From assembly GCA_030679035.1 (NCBI GenBank), contig JAUXTH010000150.1, forward strand, positions 1 to 64,000: a stretch of 64,000 nucleotides of DNA, in the 5' to 3' direction. The notes below the pieces were generated by a model that was given only the letters and a program-made list of their open reading frames with translations, made no database searches and was not told the DNA's origin. Of the stretch, positions 30,246 through 39,828 are shown in pieces (the stretch's first letter is position 1; each line of letters opens with the position of its first letter). This stretch comes from Methylobacter sp. (GTDB lineage Bacteria > Pseudomonadota > Gammaproteobacteria > Methylococcales > Methylomonadaceae). Made by a program: the position numbers and the translations under genes.

Positions 30246-30821
30246 ATGAACGACTTAAAAGTATTGCTTATTGAAGATGGAACGGCAGACCAGTTATTGG
30301 GAAAAATACTGGTTTCTAAGGGCTATTCAGTCACCGGCACCGTAATGCTTGAAGGAAACATGCAATCCTTGGCGGTGAACAACAAAATCGACATTGTTAT
30401 CTTTAATATTGACAGCCCCAGAAAATATTTTCAGCACATCGATTTCCTTAGCCAGAATCATCCGCTGCCCATCATTATCTTTGCACCTGACGATACCGTC
30501 GACACCATCAATCAAATCGTTAAGGCCGGCGTCAGCGCCTATGTTGTTAATGGCCTGGAAACCGGTCGCATTGACAGCATCATCAATATCGCTGTGGCAA
30601 GATTTAAGGAACAGCAACGGCTTAAAACCGAATTGGAAAAAACAAAATCCAGGCTTGAAGAAAGAAAACTGATAGACCGGGCAAAAGGCATTTTAATCAA
30701 AACCCGCGGCTTTACCGAAGATGACGCTTATCACACCCTGAGAAAACTGGCGATGGATCGCAATATTGCCATCGGGGAAATGGCGAAAAACGTTATCGCT
30801 ATGGCGGAGCTGCTTAAATAG
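30246..30821 (+). CDS. ANTAR-domain response regulator (NasT-like)
   Basis: Receiver-like N-terminus and ANTAR C-terminus (LEERKLIDRAKGILIKTRGFTEDDAYHTLRKLAMDRN). Confidence 0.92.
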   Translation: MNDLKVLLIEDGTADQLLGKILVSKGYSVTGTVMLEGNMQSLAVNNKIDIVIFNIDSPRKYFQHIDFLSQNHPLPIIIFAPDDTVDTINQIVKAGVSAYVVNGLETGRIDSIINIAVARFKEQQRLKTELEKTKSRLEERKLIDRAKGILIKTRGFTEDDAYHTLRKLAMDRNIAIGEMAKNVIAMAELLK

Positions 30822-30891: not shown

Positions 30892-31422
30892 TTACCACGA
30901 ATCGATGTCTATTAACCCCGCCAGCCCGGAATAATTAGCGGCGCTGGAATAGCGCCAATGCTCAGGCAAGTTCACATAACCGCGTTTTACAGGATTGGCA
31001 TGAATGTATTGCAACTTCTCTCGCATCATAGCCTCGCTAAATATCAGCTCGGCATGAACGCCTTCTTGCCAGAATTGATACTCTCGGTCTGTTTTATGCG
31101 CTCGCTTGTAAAAACGCAATCGTGTTAATAGCCTCTCGACATGCTGTGCCTGCAAACAATCGATAATTTGCCGCGCAGTATATGACTTGAAACTGTGCGC
31201 GCATTTATTCAAGTCTTTCGCTTGGGCAATAAAATGCAAATGGTTTTCTAAAATGACGTAACCGTAAAGTCGTAAGTCTTCGTGTTCCCGTTGGTAACGC
31301 CAACTATCGAGCACGATTTGCACGGTTTCAGTTCGCGTGAAAACTGGTAGCCACTCCAGTACTGTACAGGTCATAAAGTGAGGCCTACCGGGTTCTGTTA
31401 TCAGGTAACGGTTTCTGCCCAT
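30892..31422 (-). CDS. REP-associated tyrosine transposase (Y1_Tnp)
   Basis: GRPHFMTCTVLEWLPVF, YGYVILENHLHFIA, LQYIHANPVKRGYVNLPEHWRYSSA. Confidence 0.93.
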   Translation of the reverse strand: MGRNRYLITEPGRPHFMTCTVLEWLPVFTRTETVQIVLDSWRYQREHEDLRLYGYVILENHLHFIAQAKDLNKCAHSFKSYTARQIIDCLQAQHVERLLTRLRFYKRAHKTDREYQFWQEGVHAELIFSEAMMREKLQYIHANPVKRGYVNLPEHWRYSSAANYSGLAGLIDIDSW

Positions 31423-32436: not shown

Positions 32437-32607
32437 AATCTCGATTGATAATTTGTTGTGTGACGGGTTCAAGCTGAAGCCATGATTATACGATGCCTTG
32501 ATGACGTTGTTATTAACATTCCATATTCCAGCAGATTTTATGCCACAGAGCAGCTTTAGTCACCTTGAGCTACCAAGAGGCTTCGCGCCCACGCAAAAAA
32601 GACCGGA

Positions 32608-32638
32608 TTGGTGCAATACCCTGAAAATAGCGCACCAA
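32608..32638. promoter_or_regulatory. Dyad TTGGTGC-N17-GCACCAA, candidate activator site for the EAL gene
   Basis: 7-bp perfect inverted repeat about 95 bp upstream of a sigma54 element; similar site upstream of nrtA. Confidence 0.6.
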
Positions 32639-32733
32639 ATCGATGCGTTGCAGCCGCCAATGCCAATAATCATGCCGCCGCTGGTACGAGCTATAACCGT
32701 TTAAATCGGGCAAATAAAACTTACCCCCGGCTT

Positions 32734-32749
32734 TGGCACATCGATTGCT
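32734..32749 (+). promoter_or_regulatory. sigma54 -24/-12 element of the EAL gene (TGGCACATCGATTGCT)
   Basis: Matches TGGCAC-N5-TTGCW. Confidence 0.85.
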
Positions 32750-32763
32750 TTAGACAACACAGG

Positions 32764-32802
32764 GCTCCAGCGTCGGAGTGCTGCGGGTTCAATGACGAAC
32801 TC
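32764..32802 (+). promoter_or_regulatory. Candidate ANTAR-target RNA: two hexaloop hairpins
   Basis: GCTCC-AGCGTC-GGAGT and GGGTTC-AATGAC-GAACTC; both loops have A at 1 and G at 4. Confidence 0.72.
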
Positions 32803-32822
32803 CTTAAACAACTCATATCGAT

Positions 32823-33995
32823 ATGAATCAAGAAAAAATACTATTCCCTTATTTTCAGCCTATTGTCGGCGCTGCCAGCGGCACTATCATCGGTTATGAG
32901 GCATTAGCCAGACAACATGATGCAGAGGGCAGGGTTATTTCGGCAGGCGAATTGTTTTCTTCCGCGGATATTGCGCCCGATCAATTGATAGCTTGGGATC
33001 GCATGGTTCGGCGGCAAGCCTTGGAGCAATTCAGTCAATCGAATTCCAACGGTTATTTAACGCTCAATATCTCGGCCGCCTGGATCGACCGGATCGCCGA
33101 CTTTAATTCATTGCCGACCCTGCTGATGCTGGACGAGTTCAATGTTGACAGAAGCCGCGTCATTATTGAAATAACTGAATCGAAAGGCGATCTGGACAAG
33201 CTCGTTGAAATTGCCGCCGTGTATCGCAGGCACGGCTTGAAAATAGCGATTGATGACTTTGGCGCGGGTTTTTCCCAGTTGGAAAGAGTCATGGCTATAC
33301 AGCCCGACATCATCAAACTGGATATGCAGTTATTCCAGAATGCAGCCAAAGGCGGCATCGCCAGCGATATAGTGCATTTGATATCCCGGCTGGCGAAACG
33401 CACCGGTTGTCGCATCGTTTGCGAGGGCGTTGAAACCGCTGAGGACTTCCATTTCGGCTTAAGCTGCGGCGCCCAATATATGCAAGGCTACCTGTTTTCG
33501 CCGGCCACTGCGGAGTTTAAACAGCCGCTGCATTATCAACAACAAATCAGCTCACTCAGAAAAACCTTCCTGAAAAAGACCTTAGCCACCGAAGAACACA
33601 AGATTCAGTTTATCGCCAACATTAAGAGCTTGATCGAACTGCTGAAAAAAGCCCTGGAAACTGACTTCAACCTCAATAAATTATCAGCACACCCGTTTGA
33701 GGAAAGCGGCGTTCTACGGTTTTATTTATGCAATAACGACGGCGACCAAATCTCCTCCAATTTTAATTTTGCCGATGCCAGATGGTTCGAGGATTCGACG
33801 CAACTCGGCTATAACTGGGCATGGCGACCTTATTTTTATCAATTGCTGGCGCTGGAATCGGCGCAAGACAGCTATCGCATTGTAACGTCTGAACGTTACC
33901 GCGATTTTAATACCGACATGCTTTGCAAAACCCTGTCGCTGAGACTGGACGACGAGCGTATTTTATTAATTGATATTGCTGCCGAATGGGTATGA
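32823..33995 (+). CDS. EAL-domain protein (putative c-di-GMP phosphodiesterase)
   Basis: YEALAR, IEITES, IAIDDFGAGFSQLERV, KLDMQL, CEGVETAEDF motifs. Confidence 0.92.
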   Translation: MNQEKILFPYFQPIVGAASGTIIGYEALARQHDAEGRVISAGELFSSADIAPDQLIAWDRMVRRQALEQFSQSNSNGYLTLNISAAWIDRIADFNSLPTLLMLDEFNVDRSRVIIEITESKGDLDKLVEIAAVYRRHGLKIAIDDFGAGFSQLERVMAIQPDIIKLDMQLFQNAAKGGIASDIVHLISRLAKRTGCRIVCEGVETAEDFHFGLSCGAQYMQGYLFSPATAEFKQPLHYQQQISSLRKTFLKKTLATEEHKIQFIANIKSLIELLKKALETDFNLNKLSAHPFEESGVLRFYLCNNDGDQISSNFNFADARWFEDSTQLGYNWAWRPYFYQLLALESAQDSYRIVTSERYRDFNTDMLCKTLSLRLDDERILLIDIAAEWV

Positions 33996-34053: not shown

Positions 34054-36435
34054 ATGCCAAATGGTATTAAAAACTCGAATCGATTAACCATCAAAATGCG
34101 TTTTATGGTTATTGTGGCTTCTTTAATTATCGGCTTTGCGTTATTCGGCTTTGCGACCTTTAAAGCGATGAATATGCTCAATGTTAACGGTCCAATTTAT
34201 CAACGTATTGTTCAGGGCAAGGATATTATTGCCGACGTGTTGCCGCCGCCTGAATATATTATCGAATCTTATCTGGTTGCGCTGCAATTGACCCAAGTCG
34301 GCGACCCTGATGAAATCAGTGCCTTAGTGACGCGTTTTCAGTCGCTAAAAACGGAATACGAGTCCCGTCATAGTTATTGGTTAGGGCAGTCTTTGGAATC
34401 GGAACTCCATGTTTCTTTGCTTGAGCGCTCCTACCGGGCGGCACAAACTTTTTATGATGAAGCCGGCCAGCGATTTCTGCCAAGCATTCAGGCGGGCGAC
34501 CGCGAAGGTTCTCAGGCCAGTCTGCTGCAAATGCGCCACGCTTATGAAGATCATCGACTCGCTATTGATGAGGTAGTCAAGTTTACAACAACTCGTAATG
34601 TAAAAGATGAGGCACAGGCGCTGACGACCATACACGGGTACAAAATCGTTTTGATCGGCATTTTTATATTCAGCGTTGCGGTGGCTGTCGTGCTGACTGC
34701 ACTGATCAGCCGCGGCATATTACGCTCGCTCAAAACTGTCCAACAGGTAGCAGGCGCCATTGCCGAGGGTGATCTGAACTCCAATATTGACACCCATCAA
34801 AGAGATGAGATTGGCGATCTTTTACGCTCCATGAAAGCCATGCAACAACAACTGCTGGAGCGCATCACGGCGGATCGCAAAGCGGCAGACGAAATTTTGC
34901 GCGTCAAGATTGCGTTGGATAACGTCAGTACCGGTGTAATGATTGCCGATAATGACCGCAACATCATTTACGCCAATAAATCGGTAATCAATATTCTCGG
35001 TAAGGCTGAAGCTGAAATTAGTCGGCAATTGTCAAAATTCTCTCTCAATGGCCTGGTCGGAACCAACATGGATGATTTTCACGAAGATCCCTCGCATCAG
35101 GCAAAAATGCTTAACTCCTTAGCCGGCAGCTATGAGGCCGCCATGCTGGTAGGCGGCCGCTCGATGGTAGTGCTCGCCAATCCGGTCATCAATGAACAGG
35201 GTCAACGACTGGGTACGGTGGCCGAATGGCATGACCGCACCGACGAGGTCATCGCGGAAAATGAAGTAGCCGCGATTGTCGGTGCCGCAGCGATGGGAGA
35301 TTTCAGCATGCGCTTCGACCTGGATGGCTAGGAAGGCTTTTTGCGTCATTTGGGCGAAGAAATTAATCGGCTTATGCACACCAGCGAAACCGGACTGAAA
35401 GAGGTGGTGCGCGTACTCGGAGCGTTGTCCCGTGGCGACTTAACAGAAGAAATTACCCATGATTATTACGGCACTTTCGGACAACTGAAAGATGACTCCA
35501 ATTCCACAGTAGAAAAACTTACAGCTATTATCAGCCAAATCAAGGATGCCACCGACAGCATTAACACGGCGTCTAAAGAAATTGCAGCAGGCAACAATGA
35601 CCTGTCGCACCGTACTGAACAACAAGCCGCCAGCCTGCAACAAACCGCCGCCAGCATGGATGAGCTGACCTCTACCGTGCAGCATAATGCCGCAAACGCC
35701 CAACAGGCAAACCGGCTAGCCGCTGATGCCTCGGACATCGCGGGCAAAGGCGTCGAAGTGGTCAACCAAGTTGTCATGACGATGAATGAAATCAATGAGT
35801 CTTCGCACAAAATCGGGGATATAATTTCGGTGATCGACGACATTGCTTTCCAGACCAACATTCTCGCCCTCAACGCAGCGGTAGAAGCCGCACGGGCAGG
35901 AGAGCAGGGCAGAGGCTTCGCCGTGGTGGCAGTGGAAGTGCGCAGTCTTGCGCAACGCGCCGCGACGGCTGCCGGAGAAATTAAAAACCTGATTAATGAT
36001 TCGGTCAATAAAGTCGTAGGGGGCAGTAAACTGGTTGCCCAGGCGGGTCAGACCATGGAAGAAATCGTCAGCTCCATCCATGGCGTTACAAACATAATGA
36101 GCGAAATCACCGCCGCCTCTTCTGAACAAAGTTCCGGCATCGAGCAGGTCAATCAAGCCATTACCCAAATGGACGATGTAACCCAACAAAATGCCGCCTT
36201 GGTAGAACAAGCCGCAACGGCAGCAGAATCACTGGAAGAGCAGGCGCAAAATCTGGTGGTCACGATGAGCAGTTTTAAGGTGGCCGGCAACCCGAGTAAC
36301 TCAGGCAGTTCTTTTTATGTGCCACCCGTTCGAAAGGAAATAGCACAAACCAAAACAACTGCCGTTAACGTTTTATCTATCCGCCAAAAATCACAGCTGC
36401 AAGCTGCTGGTATTGATGATTGGGAAGAGTTTTAA
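34054..36435 (+). pseudogene. Methyl-accepting chemotaxis protein split by in-frame TAG
   Basis: ORFs 34054-35331 and 35341-36435 are in the same frame separated only by TAG 35329-35331; sensor/HAMP/PAS region upstream, MCP signalling hairpin downstream. Confidence 0.9.
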
Positions 36436-36926: not shown

Positions 36927-37844
36927 CTAAAACAGGAACGTAACCACCGCTTTTAAATGCCCTGCATCTATGACAGGCATCGCAAGCATGGAATTCAAGC
37001 TCCCTTCCACCAAGGCAATTTTTGAATTATTTCTGATAACAGGAACTCCGGTCAGCCATACCCTGCCCAATAGTCCTTCGCCTTTGCGGACTGAAACGGT
37101 TTCAAAGATTTCCGCCAGTTCATCATTTTGTTTGCTGTATCCCGCCTGACACACCAACCGCTGACCGCTTTCATCCGGCACCCATATCTGTAACCGTTTG
37201 GCAATCGGCGTCGCTTTAGCCGACAGAAATGTCATGATATAAACTTGATTGGCAACAACCGAAACGGGAATGCCCAGCGCCGTAGTTATTCCTGCTTTTC
37301 TGGCATCCGCACTTCTGATGAACGCAGATGATGAACCCAGGTCTTCGATAAGCACAGGCATGGCTGTTTCCCATACCTGTCCGGGTAAACCGGCACCTTT
37401 GGTGAATGTTATGTTTCTGGACATGTCTTCAAAATCATCCAGCGTACCGTAATATCCGTCAATAACAGTCAACTCAGCGTGATTCTCCAAACGGTTACTC
37501 CACACTTCTATCGCACCTGCATGGTGCTGATCGTCTCCGCACAAAAAAACCACCACGGCCATTAAAAATTCGCCTGAAAAAACAGGTATGGCAATGCCGC
37601 AGGTCAAACCAGCCTTTTTGGCCGATTTTGTCCTTTTAAAATAAGAATGATCGAATTCAGTTAATACCACAGGATGACCGGCGGCCCATGCTTTGCCGGG
37701 TAAACCTTCGTCATAAGCGAAGGATTCCTTTTCACTGGCGCCCCGAAACTCATTCAAGTCGCCATACAATCCAGCGCTAAATTCCAAGCGGGTACGATCT
37801 TTTGTCGGTATCCAGATTTCCGTTACTTTAATAAACGTTTTCAT
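36927..37844 (-). CDS. Triple GAF-domain protein
   Basis: Three repeated units: DEGLPGKAWAAGHPVV, GAGLPGQVWETAMPVL, GEGLLGRVWLTGVPVI. Confidence 0.82.
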   Translation of the reverse strand: MKTFIKVTEIWIPTKDRTRLEFSAGLYGDLNEFRGASEKESFAYDEGLPGKAWAAGHPVVLTEFDHSYFKRTKSAKKAGLTCGIAIPVFSGEFLMAVVVFLCGDDQHHAGAIEVWSNRLENHAELTVIDGYYGTLDDFEDMSRNITFTKGAGLPGQVWETAMPVLIEDLGSSSAFIRSADARKAGITTALGIPVSVVANQVYIMTFLSAKATPIAKRLQIWVPDESGQRLVCQAGYSKQNDELAEIFETVSVRKGEGLLGRVWLTGVPVIRNNSKIALVEGSLNSMLAMPVIDAGHLKAVVTFLF

Positions 37845-38118
37845 ATCAAGTCGTTTTCTTTAATAGCCGAAAAATAGTTGGTTGATGGTCTTCGTATTCC
37901 TCAATAGCATTGAGATGATCCATTTTAGACATATCTAAGAAACCTGATAATTAATAATAACTATCCAAGCCGTAGCAGGTTTTATGCCGGATTGTAGAAA
38001 TGGCACAGACGTATACCGCTGGAGCTTGACCCCTTTCATATTCACGCCACTTGTCTACATGTCAAAAATCATCGCTTTAGGTTCAGCCATCGCTACCTTG
38101 CGCATCAAGAGGACTCAA

Positions 38119-38146
38119 TTGGTGCAACACGCAGGAAAATTGCACA
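38119..38146. promoter_or_regulatory. Dyad-like site TTGGTGCA-N14-TGCACA upstream of nrtA
   Basis: Similar in sequence and position to the site upstream of the EAL gene. Confidence 0.5.
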
Positions 38147-38254
38147 GATTCGATGCGCTGTTTTCAGGAACAAACCATCTCAGTCACACAAGACAAAAAC
38201 TATAACTAACTGTATTTATTATATAAGTCACATAAATAATCCATGTGATATTTT

Positions 38255-38270
38255 TGGCACAACGATTGCT
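38255..38270 (+). promoter_or_regulatory. sigma54 -24/-12 element of nrtA (TGGCACAACGATTGCT)
   Basis: Matches TGGCAC-N5-TTGCW. Confidence 0.88.
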
Positions 38271-38285
38271 CTAAACAATACAGAG

Positions 38286-38332
38286 GCTCCAACGATGGAG
38301 CGCTAAAAAAATAGGGGTTCAACGGCGAACCC
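38286..38332 (+). promoter_or_regulatory. Candidate ANTAR-target RNA: two hexaloop hairpins in the nrtA leader
   Basis: GCTCC-AACGAT-GGAGC and GGGTTC-AACGGC-GAACCC; both loops have A at 1 and G at 4. Confidence 0.85.
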
Positions 38333-38343
38333 AAACAGACAAA

Positions 38344-38398
38344 GGCGTCTACCCGGCTGAATACTCCATGTATTCCGTAAGGTGACGCTTTTTTTTTG
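38344..38398 (+). terminator. Leader terminator upstream of nrtA
   Basis: GCGTCTACC ... GGTGACGC stem with inner GAATAC/GTATTC hairpin, followed by a T run. Confidence 0.78.
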
Positions 38399-38427
38399 CT
38401 GATTTTTTCAAACCTGCTGAGGTCAAT

Positions 38428-39828
38428 ATGAAACAAACCGGACGATTTACCATTAAAAAACGGGTTGCGGCGCTCATTGCTGTGGCTGTGGTATCAACTT
38501 TATCTTTTGCCTCCAGTGCCTACGCAGCTGAAAAACTGGAAAAAGACAGCCTCAAGCTCGGTTTCATCAAACTGACCGATATGGCGCCTTTGGCGGTTGC
38601 TTTGGAAAAAGGCTATTTCGAAGACGAAGGTCTTTCCGTGCAGCTGGAAGCGCAAGCCAACTGGAAGGTCTTGTTGGATCGCGTCGTTAGCGGCGAACTG
38701 GACGGCGCGCACATGCTGGCAACCCTGCCTTTTGGTGCGGCCATCGGCTACGGCACCAAGGCCGATATTATCAGCGCCTTTACCTTAACCTTAAACGGCG
38801 ATGCGATTACCGTATCCAACGATGTCTGGAAGCAGATGAAGCCGCAGATTCCTATGAAAGACGGCAAGCCGGTGCATCCGATCAAAGCCGATACCTTAAA
38901 ACCGGTGCTGGAAAAATACAAAGCCGCGGGCAAACCGTTCAACATGGCGATGACCTTCCCGGTCGGCACCCACAACATGAAACTGCGTTACTGGCTGGCG
39001 GCCGGAGGCATCAAGCCCGGATTCTACGCGCCGCCTGAAGACACTTCCGGCCAAATCGACGCCGAAGCGATGCTGTCGGTCACGCCGCCCCCGCAAATGC
39101 CTGCAACGATGGACTCGGGCACGATCGTCGGCTACTGCGTCGGCGAACCGTGGAATCAGCAGGCGGTATTCAAAGGCATCGGCGTGCCGGTCATCAGCGA
39201 TTACGAGCTGATGAAAAACAGCGCTGAAAAAATCTTCGGCGTGAACAAGGAGTGGGCCGACAAGAATCCCAATACCCACAAGGCGGTCATCAAGGCGTTG
39301 ATTCGCGCCTCGATGTGGCTGGATGCGGAAAATAACAAGAACCGCAACGAAGGCGTGGAAATGCTGTCGCAAAAACAATATGTCGGTGCCGATTACGAGG
39401 TGCTCGCCAACAGCATGAACGGCACGTTCGAATATGAAAAAGGCGACAAGCGCGATCTGCCCGATTTCAACGTGTTTTTCCGCCATAACGGTTCTTACCC
39501 TTATTACAGCGATGCGGTCTGGAGCCTGACCCAAATGCGCCGCTGGGGGCAAATCAACGAATACAAACCTGATTCTTGGTACCTGGAAACCGCTAAAAAA
39601 GTGTATCGGCCCGATATTTACATGGCGGCGGCCAAGACATTGATTGCCGAAGGCAAGGCGAAAGCCGGCGATTTTCCGGCCGACAATGAAACCGGCATCA
39701 AGCCGCCCAGCGCTGACTTTATTGACGGTGTCAGTTTCGACGCCACCAAGCCCAATGATTATCTGAGTAAGTTTGCTATCGGCCTTAAGGGCAAGCAAAA
39801 AGTGGTCGGCGGGAAGGTGGTCGAATAA
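38428..39828 (+). CDS. nrtA: Nitrate ABC transporter substrate-binding protein (CmpA/NrtA family)
   Basis: [56 protein letters not shown]. Confidence 0.93.

Follow-up and report, generated by a model that had tools for sequence, protein, structure and literature searches.

The locus raises the question of why two genes of one Methylobacter genome, one for an EAL-domain protein and the other nrtA of a nitrate transporter, carry upstream regions of such similar make-up. Both genes lie within the 64-kb stretch of DNA analyzed here (the window). The answer favored below, which is considered probable, is that the control regions in front of EAL and nrtA are paralogues as old as the genus, and that EAL captured an NtrC/σ54/NasT leader, which later became terminator-less and left EAL under nitrogen control without attenuation. 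The features on which the argument draws are as follows.

30246..30821, + strand: nasT-like ANTAR regulator, the sole ANTAR protein found in the window's genome
32606..32648, + strand: EAL enhancer-like element, TTGGTGCA...GCGCACC...ATGCG, one of two such pairs in the window
32733..32749, + strand: EAL putative sigma54 -24/-12 promoter, TTGGCACATCGATTGCT, a consensus match
32764..32779, + strand: EAL hairpin 1 (H1), GCTCC(AGCGTC)GGAGT, hexaloop with A1/G4
32785..32802, + strand: EAL hairpin 2 (H2), GGGTTC(AATGAC)GAACTC, hexaloop with A1/G4
32797..32808, + strand: deletion junction, GAACTCCTTAAA, from alignment with the second EAL copy of L034 and the remnants in L032, L033 and L062
32823..33995, + strand: EAL + YkuI_C protein, 390 aa (PF00563, PF10388; YkuI 2bas, E = 1e-47), no Shine-Dalgarno sequence seen
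34054..36435, + strand: chemotaxis receptor downstream of EAL, possibly in the same operon
38117..38158, + strand: nrtA enhancer-like element, TTGGTGCA...TTGCACAGATTCGATGCG, the other such pair in the window
38254..38270, + strand: nrtA putative sigma54 promoter, TTGGCACAACGATTGCT, with the TGGCA...TTGC that is invariant in 21 leaders
38286..38301, + strand: nrtA H1, GCTCC(AACGAT)GGAGC, hexaloop with A1/G4
38315..38332, + strand: nrtA H2, GGGTTC(AACGGC)GAACCC, hexaloop with A1/G4
38337..38350, + strand: nrtA hairpin 3 (H3), AGAC(AAAGGC)GTCT, missing from the EAL copy
38343..38397, + strand: nrtA intrinsic terminator with U tract, from folding, missing from the EAL copy
38428..39828, + strand: nrtA, nitrate ABC-transporter binding protein (NMT1_2), followed by nrtB and nrtC

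Similarity of the EAL and nrtA leaders

The first-pass annotation had regarded the two regions as paralogous copies on account of matching blocks in the same order, and these blocks are indeed present in both leaders (32606-32648 and 38117-38158, 32733-32768 and 38254-38290, 32784-32802 and 38314-38333). The pairwise alignment that it had proposed as a check bears out the resemblance. Local alignment of 32480-32825 with 38030-38428 gives a score of 43.5, well above that of dinucleotide shuffles (11.0 ± 1.5, maximum 18.5, n = 1000), and local alignment found nothing near this score in the rest of the 64-kb window. Scores relative to shuffles were used in place of gapped global percent identity, which was dropped as uninformative due to its baseline of ~70%. 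The similarity peaks in the core reaching from the -24 element to hairpin 2 (z ~24). It is still distinct between -150 and -3 (z ~8-11), and weak farther upstream than -150 (z ~3.5).

The order of elements common to both leaders is TTGGTGCA…GCAC, a σ54 promoter of the form TTGGCAC-N5-TTGCT, and two A1/G4 hairpins with six-base loops. The paired TTGGTGCA…GCAC element is located 126 bp (EAL) and 136 bp (nrtA) upstream of the promoter. Both this pair (0.10 expected) and tandem pairs of A1/G4 hexaloop hairpins (0.08 expected per strand) occur just twice in the 64-kb window, at EAL and nrtA. The enhancer-like element probably comprises two NtrC sites, in each of which a single half is strong; such a pair precedes most leaders and its half-sites are conserved 126-136 bp upstream, the NtrC assignment coming from the consensus only. 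The -24 GG and -12 GC of a sigma54 promoter are present in the sequence (TGGCAC-N5-TTGC), and use of RpoN is predicted. Beyond EAL and nrtA, no further ANTAR leaders were found in the genome. A third promoter-like match of near-identical type (L070 1500-1515, G000:C201:1790) lies upstream of a gene that by eye is nitrogenase-cofactor-like (nifE-like); this site was rejected as an ANTAR leader because it has no hairpins.

The leaders differ downstream of hairpin 2. The nrtA copy contains the full set of parts of an ANTAR/NasT antitermination leader, with hairpins 1, 2, and 3 and an overlapping terminator with a U tract; H3 and the terminator are mutually exclusive, and H3 folds if the transcript ends before the terminator. 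The EAL leader is ~62 nt long with hairpins 1-2 at its 5' end, and these two tandem A1/G4 hexaloop hairpins (loops AGCGTC and AATGAC) have the form of an ANTAR target. Hairpin 3 and the terminator are missing, and the AUG, which has no Shine-Dalgarno sequence, follows 20 nt past hairpin 2. The earlier observation that the EAL copy lacks the terminator stands, as no terminator-like site is present on the EAL strand. The overlapping intrinsic terminator has been deleted, and the window EAL leader is therefore not an antitermination leader now. It has no match among the Rfam default families. Two other elements were considered in this leader. An upstream ORF starting at the ATG in the hairpin 2 loop was rejected as it is not conserved (by eye, L040 has no ATG there), and a start-codon stem (TCATA-TCGA-TATGA), which folds in the window, was given no weight because it is broken in L034.

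Origin and spread of the leaders

Similarity of this kind could in principle reflect two independent sigma54/ANTAR leaders that are alike through common protein-binding constraints, since the core elements are functional and are conserved in other genera too. Independent evolution was tested with a covariance model (R2) trained on nine Methylobacter nrtA leaders only. Held-out nrtA leaders of the genus score 79-105 bits, apart from that of G150, a genome with a foreign-type NasT (53 bits), and those of NasT-less genomes, in which the leader has decayed. EAL leaders of the genus with hairpins kept score 52-81 bits, and leaders of chemotaxis-receptor (MCP) genes score 34-80 bits. For other genera, whose nrtA leaders are the genuine orthologues of those used in training, the range is 31-48 bits, the exceptions being L153 (69 bits) and the truncated locus L154 (71 bits). 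The EAL copies thus score above most of the distant nrtA orthologues, a result that fits duplication within the lineage better than independent origin. The likeness also extends to the -24/-12 spacer and to the stretch between -12 and H1, and full, terminator-bearing copies exist at EAL in relatives. In three other genera EAL lies 7-17 nt behind nasT, and what immediately precedes these nasT-EAL pairs is a σ54-like promoter without an ANTAR leader. Against this evidence, independent origin of the two leaders is very improbable.

Across 200 genomes of the family, the leaders located outside the genus are all at nrtA, and none was located at EAL outside Methylobacter, so the direction of transfer is from nrtA to EAL. 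The shuffles, the R2 scores, and the nrtA-only leaders of other genera all support the first-pass proposal that a whole control region was duplicated and captured by a signalling gene. The capture is as old as the genus and not a recent event in the window genome. The leader tree does not settle whether there was a single duplication.

Capture was not confined to EAL. An MCP gene with its own full leader is found in L032, L033, L062, L042, and two more genomes, and those in L032, L033, L062, and L042 are homologues of the receptor behind EAL in the window. The gene that comes after the GAF-adjacent leader differs between loci, being nrtA in the window, an MCP gene in L032, and EAL in L034. Over -150 to -3, the MCP and EAL leaders of relatives score 39-56 against the window nrtA leader, and these together with GAF-adjacent nrtA leaders are far closer to it than are the nrtA leaders of L032, L033, L034, and L062. 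The best match to its core is provided by the nrtA leaders of these same four loci. As the upstream part and the core match different leaders, the leaders have evidently recombined with each other, and the window nrtA control region (upstream part, 38000-38255) is a mosaic between paralogous leaders.

Comparison across genomes also suggests that leader and NasT tend to travel together. A Pfam search found no ANTAR protein in G180, G156, and G174, and their nrtA loci (L141, L142, and L143, respectively) keep the enhancer and σ54 promoter, with hairpin 2, hairpin 3, and the terminator all gone. G168, a genome that is 86% complete, is an exception, with an intact nrtA leader and no ANTAR protein detected. 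In G150 the NasT is divergent (33% identity), and the leader groups with those of genus g15, where NasT is also divergent. In loci of other genera (L156, L158, L165), nasT is followed by a gene for a triple-GAF protein and then by the leader and nrtA (compare 36930-37844 in the window). This arrangement suggests that NasT may have the GAF protein as its nitrate-sensing partner instead of an NrtA-like NasS.

Deletion of the EAL terminator

The account of the capture can be refined further. The captured copy at first possessed a terminator, which is still present in relatives; terminator and nasT remnant were lost later by deletion. In L032, L033, L062, and L047, as well as at one of the two EAL genes of L034 (the second), the complete leader including its terminator is followed by a 3' remnant of nasT and then by EAL, and in L032 this remnant reads …IGEMAKNVISMAELIK. 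In the shorter form, found in the window, L038, L040, and the first copy of L034, the 5' arm and loop of H2 lead into a nasT-like tail and then the ATG. Alignment of the first and second EAL leaders of L034 reveals a single long gap, flanked on either side by GAAC. This indicates that the deletion took the whole stretch from hairpin 3 through the terminator to the nasT remnant, and that the 3' arm of H2 consists of nasT codons. Recall that GAACTCCTTAAA marks the junction; these final codons of the nasT remnant (E-L-L-K) now form the 3' arm of H2. Paralogy, junction, and terminator loss can all be read from the aligned leaders.

In the history proposed, an nrtA-type control region would have been copied in front of a nasT-EAL pair in the Methylobacter ancestor, and the nasT copy beside EAL would then have decayed to a 3' remnant. 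A deletion from the GAAC of hairpin 2 to the GAACTCCTTAAA end of the remnant would subsequently have eliminated the remnant itself along with hairpin 3 and the terminator. Six other genomes also have no terminator at EAL and have degraded hairpins, most of them with a CAT variant of the -24/-12 spacer. The terminator-less leaders that keep their hairpins form one group in the leader tree (97/85). The EAL tree, in which deep branches are poorly resolved, does not unite the hairpin-keeping genomes. Taken together, the two trees are compatible with a single ancient loss of the terminator, after which hairpins were lost separately.

Two further rearrangements were observed in this region. The EAL ORFs at L032 7899-9173 and L062 7884-9173 contain an N-terminal stretch in duplicate, which looks like a piece of a second EAL copy that was fused to the first. 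In the window, a transposase-like ORF, possibly of the REP-associated type (by eye), lies at 30892-31422 between nasT and the EAL region. A plasmid origin of the EAL gene was rejected, as no match was found.

Fate of the EAL hairpins and possible regulatory consequences

The nearest named homologues of the EAL protein are from Methylobacter tundripaludum SV96 and others, and the active-site motifs of the catalytic EAL fold are present. Bacillus subtilis YkuI (PDB 2bas, 2w27), likewise composed of EAL and YkuI_C, is a full-length homologue. Where YkuI has DNIG in the alignment, the Methylobacter protein has kept DDFG, suggesting that it may be an active phosphodiesterase. It is expected to function as such, with lower c-di-GMP as the output. 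The receptor gene downstream is split by an in-frame TAG (35329-35331) into ORFs 34054-35331 and 35341-36435, and the homologue in L038 reads through.

As the consensus sites suggest, nitrogen limitation would be the condition in which transcription is initiated by NtrC and σ54. At nrtA, NasT would stabilize the hairpins in the presence of nitrate and so stop termination. Prevention of termination by NasT in response to nitrate is established in NasT systems (PMC3795266). The EAL leader has nothing to antiterminate, and EAL expression is therefore expected to follow nitrogen limitation. EAL in the window, and probably also the receptor behind it, would thus be under NtrC/σ54 nitrogen control without attenuation, while hairpins 1-2 would either be relics or serve as NasT-binding sites that influence translation or stability.

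Conservation was examined in the four terminator-less genomes with hairpins, using segments that were picked after seeing the data and the 4-fold sites of EAL as the baseline (36/108 invariant). Hairpin 1 is invariant at 11/14 sites (p = 7e-4) and the 5' arm and loop of hairpin 2 at 9/12 (p = 0.004), while the flanks are less conserved (-12-to-H1 stretch, 3/13; linker, 1/6; promoter spacer, 15/69). A1 and G4, the loop positions shown to be important for ANTAR binding (PMC3369931), are invariant in all eight EAL loops, and the remaining loop positions vary; hairpin 2 of L038 has a 7-nt loop. Conservation of the hairpins after terminator loss is moderate evidence for retained function.

Two explanations of the hairpins have to be weighed against these results. 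The hairpins may be decaying relics, such that NasT binding is without effect after loss of the terminator and EAL is simply driven by NtrC and sigma54. The missing terminator agrees with this, as do the already degraded hairpins of L035, L036, L037, L039, L042, and L045 and the spread of hairpin losses across the EAL tree. In at least three lineages of Methylobacter the hairpins are decayed or gone, and NasT is retained in several of these lineages, so that the hairpins are dispensable there. The four hairpin-keeping genomes speak against decay, for their hairpins are conserved above 4-fold sites and spacers with every A1 and G4 kept, and the relic explanation is judged to have slightly under an even chance. 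Alternatively, NasT may bind the EAL hairpins and act without termination, for example by hindering or favoring the access of ribosomes to the AUG that has no Shine-Dalgarno sequence or by protecting the 5' end. The conserved hairpins and leader-to-AUG stretch, the presence of one ANTAR protein in the genome, and the translational repression by actinobacterial ANTAR RNAs that lie over the RBS or start codon (PMC8164766) are in keeping with such an action. Hairpin 2, however, stops 20 nt before the AUG and covers no RBS, and sister lineages lost their hairpins independently, so that action of NasT without termination, while a serious possibility, is somewhat doubtful.

A broader proposal is offered tentatively, and we lean toward doubting it: a nitrate-responsive NasT leader, captured by c-di-GMP phosphodiesterase and chemotaxis-receptor genes, would have become a termination-independent ANTAR switch in a proteobacterium, acting on translation or stability by way of an H2 arm made from the regulator's last codons, and would couple nitrate sensing to c-di-GMP and chemotaxis. 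Nitrate sensing is probably tied to motility or biofilm signalling in methane-eating Methylobacter. The loci offer a readable sequence record of the spread of a riboregulatory region, duplicated to signalling and chemotaxis-receptor genes, and of a deletion that reuses coding sequence as a hairpin arm. They lead to the prediction that nitrate and nitrogen status feed c-di-GMP and chemotaxis in methane-oxidizing bacteria, and leaders with a terminator, without a terminator, and without NasT provide natural comparisons for termination-independent ANTAR action outside actinobacteria. In the literature, no paper was found that joins ANTAR, c-di-GMP, EAL, and antitermination for such a case.

The closest known systems are the NasT/NasR leaders of nitrate assimilation, which combine tandem A1/G4 hexaloop hairpins with an overlapping terminator (PMC3369931, PMC3795266). 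The leader at nrtA, and those at EAL in relatives, are similar to these, with a hairpin overlapping the terminator and nasT in the genome. In contrast, the window EAL copy has neither terminator nor hairpin 3 and drives a c-di-GMP/chemotaxis gene rather than one of nitrogen metabolism. The Rfam narK RNA (RF03032) and Pseudomonas P11 (RF00625) are alike in the sigma54-like GGCACA...TTGC, the CAACG loop, and the GACAAAGGCGUC block, which is also found in the H3 region of nrtA; the nrtA leader scores 26.9 bits against narK RNA and 22.1 bits against P11, below the gathering scores of 43.2 and 70, respectively. The actinobacterial ANTAR RNAs located by the RBS or start codon (PMC8164766) resemble the EAL copy in having hairpins near the start codon without a terminator. 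They belong to a different phylum, however, and the EAL hairpins differ from them in ending 20 nt upstream and in having arisen by deletion of an ancestral terminator.
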